From the IMG/VR virus record IMGVR_UViG_3300038701_002620, positions 1-24,250 of that record: 24,250 bases of DNA; one strand, written 5' to 3'. This DNA is from a virus. The translations under genes were made by a program, and so were the position numbers. The number at the start of each line of letters is the position of its first letter. Position 1 is the first letter of the stretch. Positions 7,666-23,956 of the stretch are shown piece by piece. The notes below the pieces were generated by a model, which was given only the letters and a program-made list of their open reading frames with translations, was not told the origin of the DNA and ran no database searches.

Positions 7666-8079
7666 TTAGCTATTGACTTCAGCAAGCATCTCGTCGCGAA
7701 GGTCTGGGTGGTTCTTGTTAACAAAGCTCATAGCTTCAGCACGGCTCTTGCCTTGCTGCTTGAGCTCTTTCACCTTGTCCCAGTAAGTGGCGTTTGCCTG
7801 CGTCTTGCCGGTCGATTCCTCGAGTGGATCAACACCAGCGCCACCCTTGGCAACCTTCATGACCTTCTCTTCAGACTCAGCCAATGAAGCCTTGAGTTCG
7901 GTGTTCTCAGTGGTGAGCGTTTCGTTCTGCTCTTTAAGTGCCGCATTGTCCGTTGCAAGCTCTTGCATCCAGGCTGATTGGCACTGTGCAATATCCTTGT
8001 CTTGGTCCATGCAAGCGACGACGAAGTCAGCGGATGCACCGGGGCAAGCCGCCTTGATTTCTTTCGATGTTGCGGTCAT
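7666..8079 (-). CDS. Nested in-frame capsid scaffold protein (lambda Nu3-like), 137 aa
   Basis: ATG 8077-8079 is codon 299 of the protease gene, in the same frame. AAGGAG lies at 8089-8094 with 9 nt spacing, a strong ribosome binding site where the protease needs none. The product opens MTATSKEIKAACPGAS, has a coiled-coil centre (about 45-75, Leu/Glu/Lys heptads) and ends with a short helical basic/acidic tail ending DEMLAEVNS. Size and position match lambda Nu3, which is made from an internal start in gene C and organises capsid subunits before being degraded by gpC. The protein product is predicted, not shown. Confidence 0.75.
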   Translation of the reverse strand: MTATSKEIKAACPGASADFVVACMDQDKDIAQCQSAWMQELATDNAALKEQNETLTTENTELKASLAESEEKVMKVAKGGAGVDPLEESTGKTQANATYWDKVKELKQQGKSRAEAMSFVNKNHPDLRDEMLAEVNS

Positions 8080-8973
8080 CCGCGTCTTCTCCTTTTTGGA
8101 GGTCTTGGAAGCTGAAGACTTGGGCCCACCAACCTGTTTGGCTTGCTCAAGTGCCTCTTCAAACGTTTGAACTTTATCGATCAGCCCAAGCGACTTTGCT
8201 TGAGCTGCGGGATGGACTCTACCGTCTGCTAGTTGACGAACTTGTTCGATGTTGATGTTTCGCCCAGTCGCAACGCCCTGTAAAAACAGATCATTGTGAG
8301 CGTCCACCATCCGCTGAATTTCCGCCAACTGCTCGGCAGTGATCTCGGTACCAGGAGCACCCATGCCCTTGTAGTGACCTGCTCGGACGACGTGGACTTT
8401 GACGCCCTCCTTGGCGGCGAGTGCTGACAAGTCCTGGACGATGCCATAGGTTCCGATCGATCCGACGTTGGCAGCCTCGTTGGCTGAAATCGTGGGTGAT
8501 GCACTGGCAACCCAGTAGGCCGCCGATGCCCCCAGGTCGGTGACATGTGCGAAGACTGGCTTGGCCAGCGAAGCTTTGGCGATCTCATCAGCAAGCTCTT
8601 TGGTTCCCGCGGCAGTTCCACCAGGCGAGTCGATCGAAAGGAGGATCGCCTTGATTTTGTCGTCGTTCAGTGCAGCTCGGATTTCTTGCCGCGCAATCAC
8701 CGTACTGGTCGCACGACTCATCGATTGGCGATGCTTCTGCAGCGTTCCACCAAGGTTCATGACCGCGACGCCATCATCGTCCTGGCGATACCACCAACCA
8801 GACGAACGGCCGGCGGCTTGCATGGCTTCTTGCTGAGTCTGGACATGTTGAGCAATGTCAGTCTGCTGGATCAACGAAGCCAGAGCGTTCATCGCGCCGG
8901 GTTCCATCGCCCACAGGCCGATCCACTGATCGAAATGTGGCACAAAACTGAAGTCGCCGTTAAACATCGTCAT
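7666..8973 (-). CDS. Capsid maturation protease, S49/SppA-type (lambda gpC-like), 435 aa
   Basis: This serine peptidase cleaves scaffold and portal/capsid arms during head maturation. The S49 core occupies about residues 65-265: LLSIDSPGGTAAGTKELAD (111-129) forms the oxyanion strand, Ser150 in LGASAAYWVAS is the expected nucleophile, and Lys202 in AGHYKGMGAPGTE the general base. The C-terminal part after residue 298 is a separate charged coiled-coil domain that also has its own internal start (see the nested gene). The ATG at 8971-8973 has a perfect AGGAGGT 8 nt upstream, located inside the end of the portal gene, which it overlaps by 14 bases. The fusion of protease with scaffold is the lambda C/Nu3 arrangement. 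Confidence 0.93.
   Translation of the reverse strand: MTMFNGDFSFVPHFDQWIGLWAMEPGAMNALASLIQQTDIAQHVQTQQEAMQAAGRSSGWWYRQDDDGVAVMNLGGTLQKHRQSMSRATSTVIARQEIRAALNDDKIKAILLSIDSPGGTAAGTKELADEIAKASLAKPVFAHVTDLGASAAYWVASASPTISANEAANVGSIGTYGIVQDLSALAAKEGVKVHVVRAGHYKGMGAPGTEITAEQLAEIQRMVDAHNDLFLQGVATGRNINIEQVRQLADGRVHPAAQAKSLGLIDKVQTFEEALEQAKQVGGPKSSASKTSKKEKTRMTATSKEIKAACPGASADFVVACMDQDKDIAQCQSAWMQELATDNAALKEQNETLTTENTELKASLAESEEKVMKVAKGGAGVDPLEESTGKTQANATYWDKVKELKQQGKSRAEAMSFVNKNHPDLRDEMLAEVNS
8089..8094 (-). promoter_or_regulatory. Internal ribosome binding site for the nested scaffold
   Basis: AAGGAG on the minus strand, preceded by further A residues, lies 9 nt before the in-frame ATG at 8077-8079. 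It encodes Lys-Glu-Lys residues of the linker between protease and scaffold domains, so the linker seems to double as a translation start. Confidence 0.7.
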
Positions 8974-15491: not shown

Positions 15492-18400
15492 TTAAACTCC
15501 TGCTGATTGTGTAAATTGCTGTGCCTGGGCAAGCCGTGTACCTACAAGCGGTTGCTTGTAATCAGTTATGCGATCCACTGCGACGATACGTCCATCAATT
15601 GTGTGGTTTCGGTGGAATAGTGGGTTGGTTGGGAAGTAGCGTTTGGTTTTTGCGTTACGGAACAGCAAGCCAGACGAGCCATCGCCGAGGTAGTTGTTGT
15701 CCTCACCATTTCCGATGTAAATGCGGTTTGCAATCGTGGACTTACCGGCAGTTACAACGATGTTGCAGCTATAGTACCCGTCGCCTAGGTCTTCAATCCA
15801 AGCAGTATCTACACCTACTGAAAAAGATGACCCAAGGTTTCCGTTGCCTATGTCAAACCACTGCCCACCTTGAGTGCCTGACGTGCTGTCCGGGAACATC
15901 AAAATATGATCGCGCTCTACATCTTTAACCTCGATGCTGAGTATGTACTGCTTCCCCGAAACGGCAGGCTCGTTGCCGCTTTTGAACGTGTGGACAGTAT
16001 CTGAACTGTCTTCGTGAATTTTGTCTGCTATTCCGTCGGAATTTGCAGTTGCGTTACAAGCCGCCTTCGTCCAATAAGCATTATCAAATTCGCTGTTGTA
16101 CTCCAACAGCTCCGGTGGATCTGGGTGGAAGTCAGTTAGTGGTGTTTCGTCTTGGAAGCCGTAGGGGACTGTTGCCCCAGCCTGTGAACCTAGCTCCAGC
16201 TGCGGATTCCAAATTAAAACAGACGAGGCCTTGTTCGTCGCCGCAGCCCCCGATATCCCGGTAATGATATGCGTGTTATCGGAGTTGAGAGTCATGCTAT
16301 GCTCAACTCTTTGCCATTCGGCGGACAACTCGAAATTCGTGTCTAACAACGCCAAGGCCCCAGCCCCGGCTCCTCGTTTAAGTCGCAGGTTTATGTTCTT
16401 GCCGATGTCGGCACCCTCTCCTTTGACCCAAAACGAACCTGCATACGTTTGCGAAGCGATAGCTGCGACAGTACGCGTTATGCCTAGATCCGGATCGGTT
16501 TGGTGCAGATTGTTGACGCGGAACGCGGTGTAGTTGCCATCCGGTGCCTCAATCCCACGATCCAATGTTTGAGACTGTAACGACCAATTTTCTAGGTTCG
16601 ACTCAACCAAATTCACCGGCAACGACCAATCCCGAGTTGGCCAAGCAACTGGGTGCATGTTGACTTTGGATTCGGAAATCGTGTGCTTGTCGGTGTAAGG
16701 AGGGTAGTCGAGTGGGTTGTTGTTGCAATCCAAGCCCGAGCCGTCAGACTTAGCTGGAATTGGTGAAGCCTCTTGCCAAGTGACGTGCAGGTTTCTGAGC
16801 TGGATTGTTGAGCCTGACCCGTTTGAGCCTATGATAAGCTCATGGTTCCCTGTCACGTTCGGGACCATTGTTAATTCAACGTCTTCCCAGTCACTTGTTG
16901 TGAAAAAGTGGCTAACGTCAGTAAAATATTCACGACCAAACCTAAGGCTGTTTGTACCCGATACTCGTTTAGCTTGGCACTTGATTGTTATAGGACGACC
17001 ATTGACGAAAGGTAGTTGCTGAGAGGCAATCCAGGCCGCTGTTGTACTTGGTAGTGAACCTAGAGTCTCGAACTGAACGTCAAAATCAGTCCCACCAATA
17101 ACCGGATTTGCGTCTTGATCGAGTCGCCATGTTTTACCGAAGTTGGAGTCAACTCCAGGCACTAAAGTAGCTTCGCTGAAATCAGCATCATATAACTGGT
17201 TGCTGCTCCAACCCTTGTTCGAGTTGTAATGGAACACGTCTTGCTTCGTGCCGTAGAACGTGCTTTCAGTATGACCGGATATATCTCCATTGTTCGCTGG
17301 GTCAGCTACGTTGTGAGCAATGTCACCAGCGCCTTCGGAGCAGGGAAGCCAGTCTGTGGCTACACCGTCTACGGCGACATAAAAATCACAAAGACTGCCC
17401 TGAAAGTAATTAGCAGAGCTGGAGAGTGAACCTATGAAGCTACCAACTGTAGCAGAAGCACTTGGAGCACTGGTTCCAGTCATCGCAACGCCGTCAAGTG
17501 TCGCTGTAAGCGTGTGACCTGAAGAGTCGTACTCCCATTCGAGTACATGCCAATCAGCAGTGTCAGTAAACGTTACCGATTTCGCAGCGTAGCTCGAACC
17601 GTTGTAACATCCAATTTCCAGAACATTCGATTCAAACGTTGCTAAAAAACGATTGTCTGATGCAGACGTATGAGCAAATAGCGTGCTGGTGACTGTCTTT
17701 CCTGCTTTGAAACGAATCTGACCACTGTGGTTGTTAGCTTTTGAAAGGGCGGATAAGTCCAAAGAAATCTTGTCATCCACTCCATCAAACGTGAAGCAAT
17801 TGGCATCAACCAGCTGCATCGGCTTGTGTGCTTTGCCGGGATACTGGAGAGGCAGGCGATTGCCGTCTACGTCATAAGCAATGCACTTGGTCTTGTCGCT
17901 TTCAAGCCTTGGGATGTAGACGCCAGCAGGTATGAGTCCAGTGCCATCGTCATTCAGGTACTGGGTAGCTCCGTCAGAAAGCGTGTAGCCTTTGTTGTTC
18001 AAATAATCTACTGGCGCATCTTCATCGACGTACCTAAACGATAGGTGCGTATGCAGGTTGAGCGTAGCGTGCTGGTCACCGCGAGAGTTGAGCAAGTGGG
18101 TAGTGCTGACACTGTCCAGCTTGAAATGACCAGCAGATGGTTTGTTGGCACATGCGTCTTCTGACAGGGTTGCAAGCTGGTCATGCTCCGATTCTGAAAG
18201 CGAATCGGTGTAGAACCGAATGTCAGACATCTTGCTGCTGCTGTAATTCGCACCGACCCGGAAGAACTCTACCGCAGATGCAGAAACAGCCTCACCAAGA
18301 TCAACACTGACCAAGACAAATTCACCCACGGTGGGTGTCGCAGATTGGCGAATCGTAGCGCTCAAACCTGCGGCTGTTATCACCCCATCTACGAGCGACA

Positions 18401-18737
18401 CACTCTGGGTGCCGTTGAGTGTAATGAGACCATCAGTGTTCGATGTCACGTCGGTAGGGCATACGAAAAACGACAACGCTCGTATGGTGCCCAAGTCGCC
18501 AACTGTTGCGTAGTCATTAACTCCATCTGGGCTGACGCATTGCCCCGCTACAGCATCGCGAGCAGGGACGCCAAGGCCGGGTCGGTTGTCTTCGATGCGG
18601 CCTGAGAGACTGGCAGATTTTCCAATCAGAGCTGCTTGCGCAACCTGCGACTGAACCGCAATGCTCGGAGCGATGACAAGTGGCTCGGTAACGCGGCGTG
18701 AAAAACGACTTGTAATTGGGCGGGCTAGTCTGCTCAT
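15492..18737 (-). CDS. Large tail fibre / receptor-binding protein with jelly-roll modules, 1081 aa
   Basis: The protein starts with a basic segment (MSRLARPITSRFSRR) that may anchor it to the tail. Two LamG-like beta-sandwich modules follow: about 65-200 (SPDGVNDYATVGDLG) and about 310-470 (FTFDGVDDKISLDLS, with TATLDGVAMTGT and FQGSLCDFYV). Then come three further beta-sandwich modules of carbohydrate-binding type at about 515-660, 705-860 (with WQRVEHSMTL and VLIWNPQLELG) and 875-1035 (NSEFDNAYWTKAACN, DLGDGYYSCNIVV). Such modules typically bind surface sugars. The ATG 18735-18737 follows the previous stop by 4 bases. Sampled lines of this gene look more A+T rich (about 43-48% G+C) than the terminase (a sampled line at 62%), hinting at modular exchange. 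No chaperone domain or hydrolase site was recognised. Confidence 0.85.
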   Translation of the reverse strand: MSRLARPITSRFSRRVTEPLVIAPSIAVQSQVAQAALIGKSASLSGRIEDNRPGLGVPARDAVAGQCVSPDGVNDYATVGDLGTIRALSFFVCPTDVTSNTDGLITLNGTQSVSLVDGVITAAGLSATIRQSATPTVGEFVLVSVDLGEAVSASAVEFFRVGANYSSSKMSDIRFYTDSLSESEHDQLATLSEDACANKPSAGHFKLDSVSTTHLLNSRGDQHATLNLHTHLSFRYVDEDAPVDYLNNKGYTLSDGATQYLNDDGTGLIPAGVYIPRLESDKTKCIAYDVDGNRLPLQYPGKAHKPMQLVDANCFTFDGVDDKISLDLSALSKANNHSGQIRFKAGKTVTSTLFAHTSASDNRFLATFESNVLEIGCYNGSSYAAKSVTFTDTADWHVLEWEYDSSGHTLTATLDGVAMTGTSAPSASATVGSFIGSLSSSANYFQGSLCDFYVAVDGVATDWLPCSEGAGDIAHNVADPANNGDISGHTESTFYGTKQDVFHYNSNKGWSSNQLYDADFSEATLVPGVDSNFGKTWRLDQDANPVIGGTDFDVQFETLGSLPSTTAAWIASQQLPFVNGRPITIKCQAKRVSGTNSLRFGREYFTDVSHFFTTSDWEDVELTMVPNVTGNHELIIGSNGSGSTIQLRNLHVTWQEASPIPAKSDGSGLDCNNNPLDYPPYTDKHTISESKVNMHPVAWPTRDWSLPVNLVESNLENWSLQSQTLDRGIEAPDGNYTAFRVNNLHQTDPDLGITRTVAAIASQTYAGSFWVKGEGADIGKNINLRLKRGAGAGALALLDTNFELSAEWQRVEHSMTLNSDNTHIITGISGAAATNKASSVLIWNPQLELGSQAGATVPYGFQDETPLTDFHPDPPELLEYNSEFDNAYWTKAACNATANSDGIADKIHEDSSDTVHTFKSGNEPAVSGKQYILSIEVKDVERDHILMFPDSTSGTQGGQWFDIGNGNLGSSFSVGVDTAWIEDLGDGYYSCNIVVTAGKSTIANRIYIGNGEDNNYLGDGSSGLLFRNAKTKRYFPTNPLFHRNHTIDGRIVAVDRITDYKQPLVGTRLAQAQQFTQSAGV

Positions 18738-18741
18738 TTTC

Positions 18742-19029
18742 TTACTGATTCACTACCGCGTTAATGCTTGTGTTTGGCCCAGCGTTACGAACAATTGCAC
18801 GCACAAAGTAGTCGCCTGTGCCATTGATGAACACGTTGTCTGGCCCTCGTAAAACACCGTCCAGACCGGCTGGTGCGTACTTGCTGGGCGAGTCCGTTGG
18901 ATATGCCTCTAACGACACGCTTGCGCCATCGAAGACACTGTCACCGGCAATGATCACGTTGCATGGCCCCAGCACAGCAACGCCATCACTGGTTGAATTC
19001 GTCGTTACTGCATCAAGTAGGGTCTGCAT
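18742..19029 (-). CDS. Small beta-rich protein ahead of the fibre gene, 95 aa
   Basis: ATG 19027-19029 is chosen because GAGG lies 6 nt upstream; a TTG four codons earlier overlaps that signal. The gene overlaps the end of the PAS gene by 17 bases. The protein has repeated short strands with Asn/Gly/Asp turns (GPCNVIIAGDSVFDGASVSL, DNVFINGTGDYFVRAIV, INAVVN), suggesting a small beta structure of virion type. Its place just before the fibre gene suggests a fibre-associated or attachment role. No family is recognised. Confidence 0.75.
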   Translation of the reverse strand: MQTLLDAVTTNSTSDGVAVLGPCNVIIAGDSVFDGASVSLEAYPTDSPSKYAPAGLDGVLRGPDNVFINGTGDYFVRAIVRNAGPNTSINAVVNQ

Positions 19030-19783
19030 TGTTTTCCTCAAGGTTCAATAATTTGCCAAACACAAAGGGCTGTTCGCCGATCACAACCGGGCTTTTTCTG
19101 AATCGGCCAGTAACAAACTCTTCGCAGTGCGGGTCCATCACTGACGCACGTACGCGTTCTGTGAATTCAATGGGTGCGTTGCTGTGAATTACTTGCAAGT
19201 CGTTATCTGCGTAGCTGGCAATGTCTTCTGGCTTGTATCGCCCAAACAAGTTGATTGGCGTCCAGAAGTCATTCCGCTCAACTCTAAACTGCTTGCAGTA
19301 CGCATCGTTCAAATACCACCGACTGTTTGCAATGTCGTGTACCCAAGCTGGGTGCTTGAGTGCGTTCATGATCCCGGCGAACAATTGCCGGGCGTATGAG
19401 TTCGCTGGGTTGCGCTCGTAGTATTCCAGCTTCTGCTCTAGCTTCTCAATCTCACTCTGGCACTTGCGAATTTCATTCTTCAGCTCCAGGTTTTCTAGCC
19501 GAAGCGCTTTCACCTCGTCCATCAGCGCCGTGTAGAACTCTCGCTGCTGTGTGGCCTCTCGCTCGTAGTGGGCGGCAATAACCAACCTCTCGGCAGTTTG
19601 CCTTTCTGCTCGGTCCTCAGCTTCCTTCTGTGCCTTCTTGCTTCGCGCTGCCCACCAGGCCGCGATCAGCGGTGAGGCGATCGTGACAATCGTTCCGACA
19701 ACCCAATAGACAATTTGCCAATTGTCAGTGCTGTCACCAGCCAATTGCGGTGGAGGTGCTAGGACTACGTTAGCTTCTTGCAC
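19013..19783 (-). CDS. Membrane-anchored coiled-coil protein with a PAS domain, 256 aa
   Basis: The layout is a short N-terminus, one transmembrane segment (about 23-46, IVYWVVGTIVTIASPLIAAWW), a long coiled coil (about 50-125) and a C-terminal PAS fold (about 135-248). PAS features are HPAWVHDIANSRWYLNDAYCKQF (strand, strand, helix), NLFGRYKPEDIASYADNDLQVI (the helix before the F/D-x-x-x-P motif) and TGRFRKSPVVIGEQPFVFGKLLN (final strands). PAS domains bind small ligands or mediate protein contacts; here no kinase, cyclase or DNA-binding output domain is attached. The start is GTG 19781-19783, within the end of the upstream 70-residue gene, with no clear Shine-Dalgarno sequence. Orientation of the PAS domain (cytosol or periplasm) is not settled. 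Confidence 0.8.
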   Translation of the reverse strand: MQEANVVLAPPPQLAGDSTDNWQIVYWVVGTIVTIASPLIAAWWAARSKKAQKEAEDRAERQTAERLVIAAHYEREATQQREFYTALMDEVKALRLENLELKNEIRKCQSEIEKLEQKLEYYERNPANSYARQLFAGIMNALKHPAWVHDIANSRWYLNDAYCKQFRVERNDFWTPINLFGRYKPEDIASYADNDLQVIHSNAPIEFTERVRASVMDPHCEEFVTGRFRKSPVVIGEQPFVFGKLLNLEENNADPT

Positions 19784-19982
19784 GACGGAAAAACTTTCGT
19801 TCGCGTTCTTGCTTTTGTTCTTGGCGATCTTCCCGCCACTCTTGCCAACGGTCCTGGCGTTCTTCCTGTCGCTGCTCGCGATTCTCGCGGAACTGCTGAA
19901 AAGGCTTGCGGCAATTCGCCTGCAGGATAACCAGCATCAACAGGCAAGCAGCTGCGCCCCAAATGATCCGACTGGGGCTCAT
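19770..19982 (-). CDS. Tiny anchored protein with charged tail, 70 aa
   Basis: ATG 19980-19982 overlaps the stop of the previous gene as ATGA. The N-terminal segment SRIIWGAAACLLMLVILQANC is a hydrophobic membrane segment or signal; the remainder is extremely charged (Arg/Glu/Gln, e.g. FRENREQRQEERQDRWQEW), forming a single amphipathic helix. Cys24 ends the hydrophobic stretch, but LQANC is not a proper lipobox. A short anchored protein with a charged helix recalls spanin-like proteins, but this is weak. The alternative overlapping frame (19765-20022) has no membrane segment and a worse start context, so this frame is preferred. Confidence 0.7.
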   Translation of the reverse strand: MSPSRIIWGAAACLLMLVILQANCRKPFQQFRENREQRQEERQDRWQEWREDRQEQKQERERKFFRRARS

Positions 19983-20680
19983 CGCCTACGACCAAGGATG
20001 CCAAATCCGAGTAGTCCACCACGGCTCTGCACTGTGCGTGATGTGGTCATGCTTGACGTGGGGCAAACTCCACCAGGGCAGTCACTTGCTGCCGTAACCG
20101 TCGTTGTCCTGGACCTGGATCGCATCGCGGGCGGATGGCTACCGCCGAACGTGTCGTGGTCTGCGTCGCGTAGCATCGCAATCTGCGAAGTTGTCATGCC
20201 ATCCGTATCAATGCCGTGCATCACTCGAGCATGCTCTTCGAAGCTCATCCCGTCATAGTTCTTCCAGCGTGGCGTGTACTCAACAACAGACGGCAGGGGT
20301 GCGGGTGCAATGGTCAAACCACCGGAGCTACCACCGGAGCTAACTCCAGTGTCACTGGATTTCGCGGCTGTCTTTGGTTCGTACGTCGCGACCTTGGTCT
20401 CCAGCTCCGTGACGCGGTCCTCCAGTGCGGCCAGGCGTGCGTCGTCGAACACTTCGGCTGCTGGCGCTTCCAGGCTCGTAAACCGAGTCTCAACGTCGCT
20501 GAGCCGCTGGTCGACGCTTTGCTGCAGTTCGCCGATGGCACTGGTCAGATCACGCAGGCTGCTGTCATCTTGCTCGACGACAGGCAACGATGGCGAGTGT
20601 GCCGTCGCTGACTCGCGCTCGGGCGATGTGAATACGATAAACGCGATGGCGATTGCCGCCATGATTCCAAGAGTCTTCAA
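19979..20680 (-). CDS. Anchored coiled-coil protein with CPGGVCP motif, 233 aa
   Basis: The start is TTG 20678-20680, 10 bases after the peptidase stop, with AGGAG at good spacing; an upstream in-frame extension to 21091 would overlap the peptidase gene and is rejected. Residues 1-20 (MKTLGIMAAIAIAFIVFTSP) are a membrane anchor or signal; 40-100 form a coiled coil; 105-125 is a Ser/Gly linker. Residues about 137-185 (RWKNYDGMSFEEHARVMHGIDT, then RDADHDTFGGSH) are a compact domain with many His/Asp residues. The C-terminus has CPGGVCP at 201-207 and ends GLLGFGILGRRR. Such Cys-rich ends and terminal GRRR recall planctomycete proteins, but this is recollection, not a test. Confidence 0.75.
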   Translation of the reverse strand: MKTLGIMAAIAIAFIVFTSPERESATAHSPSLPVVEQDDSSLRDLTSAIGELQQSVDQRLSDVETRFTSLEAPAAEVFDDARLAALEDRVTELETKVATYEPKTAAKSSDTGVSSGGSSGGLTIAPAPLPSVVEYTPRWKNYDGMSFEEHARVMHGIDTDGMTTSQIAMLRDADHDTFGGSHPPAMRSRSRTTTVTAASDCPGGVCPTSSMTTSRTVQSRGGLLGFGILGRRR

Positions 20681-20690
20681 GGCTCTGCTC

Positions 20691-21602
20691 CTAATTAACG
20701 AATTGGTCTTTGTGGTCAGGCCGGGCTGACGTGACGATGTAAGTGTCGTGGTACTGGTTGCAAGAGAATGCTTGTTCCATCGTGAACAATGCATAGCCCT
20801 TTTCGCCCCAGCTTTGCCCTGGTCGGCCATAGCGTGGATCCTGACTTGGCCCCCAGCTGTTCTTGCAGTCTGGATGCACGATGTCGTAACCGCCAACGTA
20901 CTTGGCTGACTGGAACATCGTGGCGTGATTGCCCTTACCGCGACCAGTGACGACATAGCCGTTTCGCAGCCGCATGGAATTGCTTCCCACATGCCACGCG
21001 AACACAACCGGATTGCGACGTGCCAACTCACTGGCAAGACAGCGAGCAAACTCTCGATAGCCGCGAGGCGCTCGATACCATTCCCATCCACGAAATCGCT
21101 TAGCCTCGTTGTCGGCCACAGCTCGGGCAGATGATGGGACGTGGCGGTTGTTGAACGCGTTGAGGGGGATCTGATACTTGCGTCCGTTGACTTCGATCTC
21201 TAGTGGCGACACACCGCGGCGCTGTGCAACCTGAAACGCTCGGATAAGGGCAGAGCCCGCATCGCGACCGTTGTTCATTTGCATGTAGGCGTCGTTGTCG
21301 CTGAGGATCTCGTGGGGCATACCTTGGTTGCGACGGATCTGCTCAAACGCCCCCTTCAGAGCGGATGCATTGCACTTGCCCAGAGGATTCTGGTTGATCA
21401 TCGTGTGAGCAAATAGCTCGCGCTCTTGCAAGTAGAAATCGCCAGCAATTGCTTTCTTAATGTCCGAGTCGTCGAGCATTCGGGACTCTGGATACTCTGG
21501 CGACATCGCCATCAAGGCTTGCTCTTCTGGATCAGGCAAGTTCAGACCGAGAGCGACCTCAAACCCACCGTCAAGCTTCAGTAGTGTTTCGTTGGTGCTC
21601 AT
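20691..21602 (-). CDS. Papain-family (C1-like) cysteine peptidase, 303 aa
   Basis: All four elements of the papain active site are visible: Gln71 (oxyanion hole) in NQNPLGKCNAS, Cys77 six residues later exactly as in papain, His226 in GKGNHATMF and Asn248 in CKNSWG, followed by SWGEKGYALF (264-273) as in the classic NSWG...WGxxGY end of C1 enzymes. The Gly-Met-Phe type C1 helix and a helical domain (about 100-135) also fit. No signal peptide or papain-type propeptide is seen, so it should start in the cytosol or in the virion. The start overlaps the preceding stop as ATGA. Substrate and role are unknown; lysis, processing of virion or host proteins, and host takeover are all open. Confidence 0.88.
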   Translation of the reverse strand: MSTNETLLKLDGGFEVALGLNLPDPEEQALMAMSPEYPESRMLDDSDIKKAIAGDFYLQERELFAHTMINQNPLGKCNASALKGAFEQIRRNQGMPHEILSDNDAYMQMNNGRDAGSALIRAFQVAQRRGVSPLEIEVNGRKYQIPLNAFNNRHVPSSARAVADNEAKRFRGWEWYRAPRGYREFARCLASELARRNPVVFAWHVGSNSMRLRNGYVVTGRGKGNHATMFQSAKYVGGYDIVHPDCKNSWGPSQDPRYGRPGQSWGEKGYALFTMEQAFSCNQYHDTYIVTSARPDHKDQFVN

Positions 21603-22081
21603 CGGATAAAGCCCTTCAGTGCCTCAAGGTCAGTTGGCCAGCTGGCTGCTTTGACTGGCTTGTCGGATTTGTCAGTCAGTACTACGAACGGCGGAACAAC
21701 ACCTCGCGTCTGTGCGAACTGTATCAACTGCGGAACAGGCGGGTCCGTCAGATCGTCGTCGAGTGCTCGGAATCCACCAGAAAGCCCATTCGCCTCACAA
21801 AACGCAGGCATCTCTCGCAGCAGCAGGTCATGCTCGATCGGCTGCGGATTTCGCTCATGAACAAAGATCAGCGTATTACCATCGGTTGCTGGCTCGACCT
21901 GCTCCTGCTGGTCTCCCTCGCGATCGTAGGGGATGCCGTCCGGTGCAAAACGTTGGAATGCAAGCAAGGCTGCAGCACCGAGGAGCACACCAACAGCCAG
22001 CGAATGCCAGCCAGGCGAGGACTGTGGCGCGGGCGCTGCAGCCTGCTCAGTCGCGTTCAGACCAAATGGATCTCGGCTCAT
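21599..22081 (-). CDS. Membrane protein with a thioredoxin-like domain lacking CxxC, 160 aa
   Basis: A transmembrane segment (about 24-47, GWHSLAVGVLLGAAALLAFQRFA) is followed by a linker and a domain at about 68-160 with the thioredoxin order: strand NTLIFVHERN, helix, strand GGFRALDDDL, helix PVPQLIQFAQTRG, a cis-Pro-type turn VVPPFVVLTD and final helix TDLEALKGFIR. No CxxC is present where it should follow the first strand, so a redox role by the usual chemistry is unlikely. It starts at ATG 22079-22081 by an ATGA overlap. Trx folds are common in envelope scaffolds, so a structural role is conceivable. The fold is an inference from pattern. Confidence 0.75.
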   Translation of the reverse strand: MSRDPFGLNATEQAAAPAPQSSPGWHSLAVGVLLGAAALLAFQRFAPDGIPYDREGDQQEQVEPATDGNTLIFVHERNPQPIEHDLLLREMPAFCEANGLSGGFRALDDDLTDPPVPQLIQFAQTRGVVPPFVVLTDKSDKPVKAASWPTDLEALKGFIR

Positions 22082-22590
22082 TTTGCGACCTCCGATTTCT
22101 CGGACTGGGCGGCCAACTTTTTCAGTTCAGCAAGCTTTGTTTCCGCCGTCGCGAAATCACTCTCAGCCACAGCTGCAGTCAATTCGCTAATCGCCTCTGG
22201 CCCGCGGACCATCGGCTCGAGCTTCGCGCGTGCGGCGACATCGTTGGTTGCGATCGCCTGGATTAGGTCGCGTTGGACTTTGTCAGGACTAGATACCTTC
22301 ACGGCAGGCGCGCTGGCGGTAGTGCTGCCCTGGATTTGATTCCAAACCCACTCGCCAACGTTCAGCACCCACAAACCAACTCCAGCGAGCAGTGCGATGC
22401 CGAGTTCGATTACCGGCCAGAGCAAAGCCAATCCCGTGACTGGGTTTGCAACCTCGCCCTCGGCGGGATCTGGCGTCGAATAGGCCAGTGCTGCATCCTG
22501 CAGCGTTGGCGAAAACAGCCAACGCAATGCCAGAAACAGAACGGCTCCACCAACAGCCACTTGAATTCGCTTGTTGTTCTTCCAATCCAT
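22078..22590 (-). CDS. Membrane protein with two hydrophobic segments, 170 aa
   Basis: Two membrane segments (about 9-27, IQVAVGGAVLFLALRWLF; 52-82, VTGLALLWPVIELGIALLAGVGLWVLNV) are followed by an Ala/Glu/Lys helical tail (about 100-170) that probably lies in the cytosol. The start is ATG 22588-22590, overlapping the KilA-N gene stop; a GTG one codon earlier also exists. A two-TM protein with a charged C-terminal domain can be a holin, but the tail is longer than usual and the family is not recognised. Its stop overlaps the next start as ATGA. Confidence 0.75.
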   Translation of the reverse strand: MDWKNNKRIQVAVGGAVLFLALRWLFSPTLQDAALAYSTPDPAEGEVANPVTGLALLWPVIELGIALLAGVGLWVLNVGEWVWNQIQGSTTASAPAVKVSSPDKVQRDLIQAIATNDVAARAKLEPMVRGPEAISELTAAVAESDFATAETKLAELKKLAAQSEKSEVAK

Positions 22591-23432
22591 CACTCACCAC
22601 CCTCAAACTCTAGGAAAAGCTGGGAGTCGCCAGCGTGAAGCAATCGTTGAAATTGCTGAAATGCTGGACCAGCTTGGAACCAATAGCCATTTGGCTTGCG
22701 ATTCTTCAGCTTGTTATTGCATGTCTTGCAGACGATCCATCCGTGCTCCAGCCTGTTCATTGAGCGGTGGTGGTAGTGCTCAAGCTGAGCGATATGGGGA
22801 ATTCGCTTGCCACCCAGGACAATGCCCTGCAATTGGCAGCAAGGGCATTGCCCGTGATAGTATCGCTCAACACAAGAAACAAACCTCTTGGCTACACTCG
22901 CTGAAAACCCCTCGCGAATGCCTTGTGTTCTCTCATCGATTCGCTTCACCATTGGAAGCAACTCGTTGAGGATGTGTTGATTCTGCTCTTGAATGCTTAG
23001 CATGCGGGTTACGAGCGACTCGTACTTGCTGTGCAAGACCGAAATATCGTTCTGGATGTCTGCGATTGCATGCTCTGCGTGCTCTCGATGAGCCACTCGC
23101 TGGCCTGTCATAATCGCTTCGATCTGCCCTGTTACCCAGACGGCAAAATCTGGCGAGCACCACTGAGCGAGGTGGATGGCGACCCGGCGATGAACCCAAG
23201 TACCGCCTCCGAGATCACCGCGAACTGCACTAGACTGGATCAGGTCCGAATTCGGACATGATAATTGCCTAGCCAATGCCGCAATAAACTCTTGCGTCTG
23301 CTGGTTCTCCCAGTATTTTGCCCAGCGCTTTCCGGTCGCCTGGCACATAGCGGTGGCGTTGACGAATTCATCTGCCGGGCGGCATTGAATTTCGGTGCTG
23401 TTGTAGCTTCCTAGTGTTGCTAGACCAATCAC
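22590..23432 (-). CDS. KilA-N domain / coiled coil / HNH-like protein, 280 aa
   Basis: Residues about 15-108 form a KilA-N domain: EFVNATAMCQATGKRWAKYW, then TQEFIAALA and GGTWVHRRVAIHLAQWCSPDFAVWV, a DNA-binding fold of phages and large viruses. A coiled coil follows at about 115-175. The C-terminal part has a treble-clef HNH pattern: Cys196/Cys199, LEHYHH (217-222) and CKTCNNKLKN (235-244), with the paired Cys and a His-containing centre typical of HNH nucleases. The start is GTG 23430-23432, overlapping the previous stop as GTGA. This may be a DNA-binding homing-type nuclease or a regulator. Its place amid membrane genes is odd. Confidence 0.83.
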   Translation of the reverse strand: MIGLATLGSYNSTEIQCRPADEFVNATAMCQATGKRWAKYWENQQTQEFIAALARQLSCPNSDLIQSSAVRGDLGGGTWVHRRVAIHLAQWCSPDFAVWVTGQIEAIMTGQRVAHREHAEHAIADIQNDISVLHSKYESLVTRMLSIQEQNQHILNELLPMVKRIDERTQGIREGFSASVAKRFVSCVERYYHGQCPCCQLQGIVLGGKRIPHIAQLEHYHHRSMNRLEHGWIVCKTCNNKLKNRKPNGYWFQAGPAFQQFQRLLHAGDSQLFLEFEGGE

Positions 23433-23956
23433 TCACCACCCCCAGAAAGTTCTTCCGCCAGCGTGCCACTTGGATCCAACACTTCGATGATGCGGTCGAA
23501 CTTGGCTGTTTGCCGCATGCTGGTTGCAACGGCTTGCTCTCGCTGCTTGTAAGCCGCATGCAGGTTCTGCGTCGCTAGCTCAAGCTCTCCGCACTTCGCG
23601 TCAAAGCGACCCTGCAGTGCTGAGAGTTTTCCACTCGCCATCGAGGCTGCTTTGTGGGATTCAGCAAGCTGCTGCTCGGCTTCGCGCAGTCCGTCCTTCA
23701 GGCCGTCGTGCTTTTGCTGCAACGGCTCTACACGAGCGACTTGCTTGGTGAGCTTGGCCGTTGCCGACTTCGCCTCGTCTTCGTGTCGCTGTGCCAGCAG
23801 CTCCATCTCGTCTGCGATTCTGCTCGCCAGATCGTAGTCAGACCGCAGCCGTCGCATCAGACGAAGTGACCGCCGTCGTGCAATCAAAAGCACAGCATTT
23901 AGCAGTGCGCTGCACCCGAGGATGATGGGTAGAAGATTTGTGATTTCCGCTGGCAT
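23429..23956 (-). CDS. Membrane-anchored coiled-coil protein, 175 aa
   Basis: ATG 23954-23956 has GGGGAG 4 nt upstream. A short N-terminus is followed by a transmembrane segment (about 8-26, LPIILGCSALLNAVLLIA) and a basic stop-transfer stretch (RRRSLRLMRRLR). Almost all the rest is coiled coil, with Leu/Ala heptads (about 45-150). The C-terminus ends LSGGGE. It is the first gene of the cassette after the untranslated region and may be an inner-membrane scaffold or spanin-like component. No family recognised. By orientation (positive-inside rule) the coiled coil should be cytosolic. Confidence 0.75.
   Translation of the reverse strand: MPAEITNLLPIILGCSALLNAVLLIARRRSLRLMRRLRSDYDLASRIADEMELLAQRHEDEAKSATAKLTKQVARVEPLQQKHDGLKDGLREAEQQLAESHKAASMASGKLSALQGRFDAKCGELELATQNLHAAYKQREQAVATSMRQTAKFDRIIEVLDPSGTLAEELSGGGE

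Follow-up and report, generated by a model that had tools for sequence, protein, structure and literature searches.

The window, a 24,250-base fragment recorded as viral in IMG/VR, encodes a peptidase (P0001) that is supported as a divergent member of the known papain family. Its pairing with a membrane-anchored thioredoxin-fold partner is established. Together these findings point to a two-part protein-cutting device at the host envelope, perhaps one that bursts the cell. Both the peptidase activity of P0001 and its action on the envelope are what we infer from sequence. The reading that we place first, tentatively and with somewhat less than an even chance, is that P0001 is an active papain-family peptidase working outside the cytoplasm with its anchored partner, most likely as a late lytic protease. 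The conserved partner, which an earlier sequence-only reading of this DNA had missed, is the most informative feature of the context of P0001. A two-component phage module of this kind appears to be undescribed in the sources searched; in open-access full texts, no description of a phage papain/thioredoxin pair was found.

Table 1. Positions of the window features and of the related loci discussed in the text
Feature	Position	Strand	Remarks
P0001, papain-family (C1-type) cysteine peptidase, 303 aa + stop	20691..21602	minus	profile, fold and motif
P0001 oxyanion Gln71 codon	21390-21392	minus	
P0001 Cys77 codon	21372-21374	minus	
P0001 His226 codon	20925-20927	minus	
P0001 Asn248 codon	20859-20861	minus	
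Membrane-anchored partner	21599..22081	minus	TM roughly at residues 24-43; after a linker, a C-terminal thioredoxin-fold domain lacking CxxC
Small protein with two hydrophobic segments	22078..22593	minus	abuts partner; putative holin
TM and long coiled-coil protein	23429..23956	minus	N-terminal TM; first gene of the run; candidate neighbour of the module by position
Exported coiled-coil protein	19979..20680	minus	downstream of P0001; C-terminal CPGGVCP and basic tail; start codon inferred
TM and coiled-coil protein	19013..19783	minus	phrog_8369 E 1.5e-6; phrog_1026 E 0.0027
Fusion protein	L111:1830-3512		single ORF: signal-like segment, Pro-rich linker, Trx-like domain, papain domain
Fusion protein	L190:4356-5816		single ORF, same order of parts
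Fusion protein	L197:4209-5825		single ORF, same order of parts
Exported CxxC thioredoxin	L018:2986-3492		
Exported CxxC thioredoxin	L109:6729-7265		
Exported CxxC thioredoxin	L102:8264-8746		
Exported CxxC thioredoxin	L105:1351-1746		
P0002, cysteine-peptidase-like protein	L002:4550-5641		motifs read by eye
Cysteine-peptidase-like protein	L006:4472-5152		lipoprotein-type signal; motifs read by eye

The window peptidase and its papain fold

P0001 is encoded on the minus strand. The sequence-only reading had named no strand, and the plus strand of 20691-21602 is riddled with stops. In the minus-strand translation we could read all four residues that had been listed (Q71, C77, H226 and N248), as well as NSWG at 248-251, WGEKGY at 265-270 and the papain-like spacing of six between Gln and Cys. 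Among the ORFs compared, P0001 was the sole match to the strict pattern Q-x5-C ... [ND]H[AGTSVL] ... [ND]SW, and the same pattern gave 0 matches in 20 shuffles of 2718 ORFs, indicating that its occurrence in P0001 is not due to chance. The description of the catalytic set as complete holds for the four named residues but not for the position after Cys77, which is Asn78 in P0001 and Trp in 61 of the 66 family members. H226 was placed by means of a GNHA motif 22 residues before N248, an insertion causing automatic alignment to misplace the His of P0001. A GNHA motif 22 residues ahead of NSWG is the usual layout of papains and cathepsins, and H226 is therefore preferred as the catalytic His; it falls in a low-confidence stretch (215-242) of the AlphaFold2 model. 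In agreement with the earlier statement that P0001 bears no signal peptide, it has no hydrophobic segment (top 19-residue hydropathy 0.54). That it also lacks a propeptide is true insofar as none (I29) is recognised, but about 65 residues lie N-terminal to the catalytic domain. They contain a conserved helix (LIPRSEWxxRI in relatives, MLDDSDIKKAI in P0001) that may serve as a propeptide-like segment.

Compared alone with Pfam, P0001 matches Peptidase_C1 (PF00112) at E=0.07 and 13.6 bits, under the curated cut-off of 20.7 bits, which is a detection threshold and not a biological feature. Its relative at L018:2183-2983 clears this cut-off with 26 bits. PF00112 is matched by 24 of 31 family members and phrog_16701, annotated 'peptidase', by 20 of the 31 (best E 3.3e-4); P0001 itself had no match in PHROGs, phrog_16701 included. 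When a profile was built from 32 related phage proteins with P0001 left out, it picked P0001 out of thousands of ORFs with E=2.4e-13. A further profile (A5) of 31 family members, P0001 included, found papains and cathepsins in the PDB with E down to 1e-15. The AlphaFold2 model of P0001 (pLDDT 70, pTM 0.73) shows a papain fold with a helical L domain and a beta R domain; family members are part of its input alignment, and model and profile are partly dependent. The best solved structure for this model is xylellain (3ois_A, Z 20.1, rmsd 3.1 A, 216 residues aligned, 19% identity). Further top PDB matches are papain-family enzymes exclusively, and Foldseek concurs. The papain-family assignment of the sequence-only reading is thus borne out by profile, fold and catalytic residues. 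The two observations that it had named as counting against it, a predicted structure without the papain fold and loss of Cys/His in close homologues, were both looked for. The fold is present, and Cys and His are kept in 66 and 64 of 66 members, respectively, these relatives all being divergent (about 14-24% identity).

Single-sequence scans of viral_contigs and genome_contigs with P0001 found no relatives. They were reached through terminase-related contigs, in which an ORF motif screen led to the papain-like protein of L018 and thence to its relatives. The family comprises 66 distinct peptidase sequences, from about a hundred uncultured phage sequences. Gln is conserved in all 66 and Asn in 60, with Asp in another 4; one of the two apparent exceptions for His is the misaligned P0001. 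By tblastn, no match to the peptidase was found in 50,697 records of isolated phages. The view that few named phage late proteins are papain-type enzymes is therefore correct for isolated phages; in uncultured viral contigs the family is common. Some phages have a further papain copy (L091:6685-7497, L112:6789-7598 and L092:13984-14799), which is divergent, is accompanied by a partner gene of its own and has DSYN in place of NSWG.

The thioredoxin-fold partner and the location of the peptidase

The stop codon of the window partner overlaps the start of P0001 (ATGA). In nearly all peptidase loci there is an adjoining upstream gene, often with the same ATGA overlap, whose product starts with a hydrophobic segment (46 of 62 partners) and ends in a domain of about 90 residues, in many cases behind a proline-rich linker. 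A profile made from 21 partner domains matched 35 ORFs, all 35 of them in peptidase loci. Forty later contigs, which had not been used for any profile and in which 36 peptidase genes lie clear of a contig edge, served as an out-of-sample set. Upstream of 34 of these 36 testable genes there was a partner match: in 23 cases the two genes abut or overlap, in 10 they lie up to about 0.9 kb apart, and in 1 they are fused. The two misses are L190, which is a visible fusion, and L171, which has a divergent upstream protein of the same architecture by eye. No partner without a peptidase was seen among the 35 profile matches or in the 40 out-of-sample contigs, and a search for additional partners with a narrow profile returned already known loci only.

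The window partner is divergent, aligning to the partner family by hhalign at E=1.6e-4 and 50% probability. AlphaFold2, run on its domain with the family alignment, gave a b-a-b-a-b-b-a arrangement (pLDDT 77.9). The leading PDB matches of this model are all of the thioredoxin fold (3d6i_B, Z 8.5, rmsd 2.5 A, 82 residues aligned). The CxxC redox site is absent from the window partner and from its family alignment. Since the fold is present and CxxC is absent, we describe it as a thioredoxin-fold protein and not as a thioredoxin.

In L111, L190 and L197, partner and papain parts are fused in one chain of 487-561 residues, which is direct sequence evidence that the two belong together. A signal sequence heads each chain, and the papain domain of the fused forms is accordingly predicted to be exported. 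For the phages with separate genes, we infer that the peptidase is exported as well.

This predicted location bears on two roles in the virion. P0001 could be a tail-borne protease with which the phage breaches a host protein layer at entry, the partner acting as an assembly or membrane chaperone. P0001 is on the same strand as, and just upstream of, the tail and packaging genes of the window (tail protein 15492-18737), and in L018 the peptidase gene is near TerL, both of which would suit such a role. We hold it improbable, as the partner is membrane-anchored or signal-bearing in most cases (the 46 of 62 above) and the fusions carry signals, unlike virion proteins. Proteases also serve phage head maturation, but it is very remote that P0001 processes a capsid or scaffold protein: an S49 peptidase gene (7666-8973; Peptidase_S49 E 2.6e-37) already adjoins the portal and capsid genes, whereas the papain gene is 12 kb away in a run of genes for anchored proteins, and its fused relatives bear signals. 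This role was rejected on account of the separate S49 gene in the window.

Neighbouring genes and action at the host envelope

P0001 lies, as the sequence-only reading had it, in an operon of anchored proteins: its gene overlaps that of the TM-anchored partner, and more genes for TM or coiled-coil proteins flank the two. The product of 19013..19783 has weak similarity to phage 'hol-like' and Rz-like spanin families. Of 57 related loci, 34 have a small TM gene ahead of that for the partner, against a background of 17% for all 80-200-aa ORFs; in the window, 22078-22593 takes this place. Across loci, the genes 3' of the peptidase encode exported proteins. In at least four of them, an exported CxxC thioredoxin directly follows the papain gene. 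The product of window 19979-20680 resembles, by eye, that of L093:3435-4121.

Two side observations concern this neighbourhood. Between genes for anchored proteins stands one for a KilA-N protein (22590-23432, minus strand; PF04383 E 1.4e-21), whose C-terminal part is HNH-like (phrog_5956 E 2.5e-4). In addition, C-terminal motifs of the CxGGxC type are common to exported proteins of the window (19979-20680), L093 (3435-4121), L085 (5635-5970), L197, whose fused chain ends in CPGGNCP, and L006 (4971-5741). Several such proteins near the peptidase end in a basic tail, and these C-termini might be signals for sorting to, or cross-linking in, the host envelope. Compared with plasmids, the L085 protein gave no meaningful match.

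A lytic role is our first choice for two reasons: the signal-less enzyme adjoins TM genes and a spanin-like/hol-like neighbour, and classical lysin domains were not seen. Under such a role, the partner would be an inner-membrane protein whose Trx-like domain faces the periplasm. The signal-less peptidase would cross at lysis, either through a holin-like pore in the fashion of an ordinary endolysin or complexed with the partner. It would then cleave the protein or peptide linkages that keep the host envelope together, be it in envelope proteins or in peptidoglycan stem peptides. In the closest phages, L002/L003 (TerL 60%) and L006 (TerL 69%), the position of P0001 is taken by proteins with motifs of the Cys-His-Asn/Asp type. 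No homology of P0001 to P0002 or to the L006 counterpart was demonstrable, and the two may be a functional replacement of P0001. We count it as support for a lytic role that the L006 counterpart starts with a lipoprotein-type signal.

In a comparison of P0001 with Pfam and PHROGs at E<=1, which would not make a papain-type lysin recognisable, no lysin domain family was matched. Classical lysin domains were absent from 216 proteins of seven phages bearing the module or an analogue, and Amidase, lysozyme, SLT, M15 and M23 from 21 records of such phages. Twelve terminase relatives without the peptidase, taken as a control, likewise lack Amidase_2, M15_3, lysozyme, SLT and M23. All these records are possibly fragments. 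A contrast in which phages without the peptidase would carry ordinary lysins thus failed, the five lysin families being absent from both groups. Absence of lysins is not specific to the module, and this weakens the lytic reading. Among the best 25 of 35 families in terminase relatives without the peptidase were one Serpin (E 6.9e-111), one SAVED (E 5e-40) and AbiEi/AbiEii; these genes may be phage cargo or the host flank of proviruses.

The anchoring itself could be put to a non-lytic use. A membrane-tethered, late-expressed protease might alter the surface of the infected cell, whether for superinfection exclusion or for remodelling of receptors or envelope. The partner is a permanent membrane anchor, and the three fusions, in which the peptidase is physically joined to an exported protein, would fit, as would the anchored or secreted products of adjoining genes; a permanently exported enzyme would, moreover, be an odd lysis timer. 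Yet the module has no known exclusion gene, and with its conserved small TM gene and spanin-like neighbour it has more the look of a group of lysis genes; we consider this use rather unlikely.

The nature of the host envelope also enters the argument. In one phage of the family (G009), a module-bearing contig contains a DUF1559/N-methylation pseudopilin piece (L120:4844-5521) whose plasmid matches are all from Planctomycetota. This marker family was found in 1 of 37 records, and comparison of TerL with plasmids returned only distant Enterobacteria-type terminases. The hosts are possibly planctomycetes. A passage in PMC3035269, citing early chemistry (Liesack 1986), describes planctomycete envelopes as containing SDS-resistant protein that is rich in Pro and Cys and stabilised by disulfides. 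A two-part attack on such an envelope, in which the peptidase cuts while Trx-type partners or neighbours loosen disulfides, would suit a planctomycete host, and the exported CxxC thioredoxins after the peptidase (L018, L102, L105 and L109) would suit the attack. Against it stand the missing CxxC of the conserved partner, the single record with the marker family, and the presence of peptidoglycan in planctomycetes (PMC4432640, PMC4432595); we assign it a low probability. Because planctomycete sacculi consist of peptidoglycan and are sensitive to lysozyme (PMC4432640), a protease would be no obvious lysin for such a host. That the papain protease and its anchored, redox-dead partner, sometimes with a CxxC thioredoxin, replace the endolysin and break a disulfide-stabilised, protein-rich envelope such as that reported for planctomycetes is likewise a long shot.

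Comparison with known systems

Papain-type enzymes are textbook proteases, but few, to our knowledge, have been described as phage effectors. A peptidase family that keeps to one partner, in some phages within the same chain, constitutes a two-component system open to test. Should that system lyse or remodel the host envelope, it would be informative about how the envelope of its hosts, possibly planctomycetes, is held together.

Xylellain, a C1-family cysteine protease of Xylella fastidiosa (PDB 3ois), shares with P0001 the papain fold and the Gln/Cys/His/Asn set, and its short N-terminal extension also aligns with P0001. It is, however, a cellular enzyme without phage context and only distantly related in sequence, and we know of no Trx-like partner for it. 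The papain/cathepsin family (MEROPS C1A; PF00112) has catalytic residues, NSWG and fold in common with P0001, which differs from it in having neither a recognised I29 propeptide nor a signal peptide and in carrying Asn, not Trp, after the catalytic Cys. The annotation of phrog_16701, matched by relatives but not by P0001, stops at 'peptidase' and describes no partner. CHAP and NlpC/P60 endolysins have papain-like folds but form separate families, their cores being shorter and their activity on peptidoglycan known; neither was detected for P0001. In the way they might work they are comparable, being likewise signal-less Cys-His hydrolases encoded beside TM genes. If the module of P0001 does lyse or remodel the host envelope, it would represent a protein-cutting alternative to endolysins.
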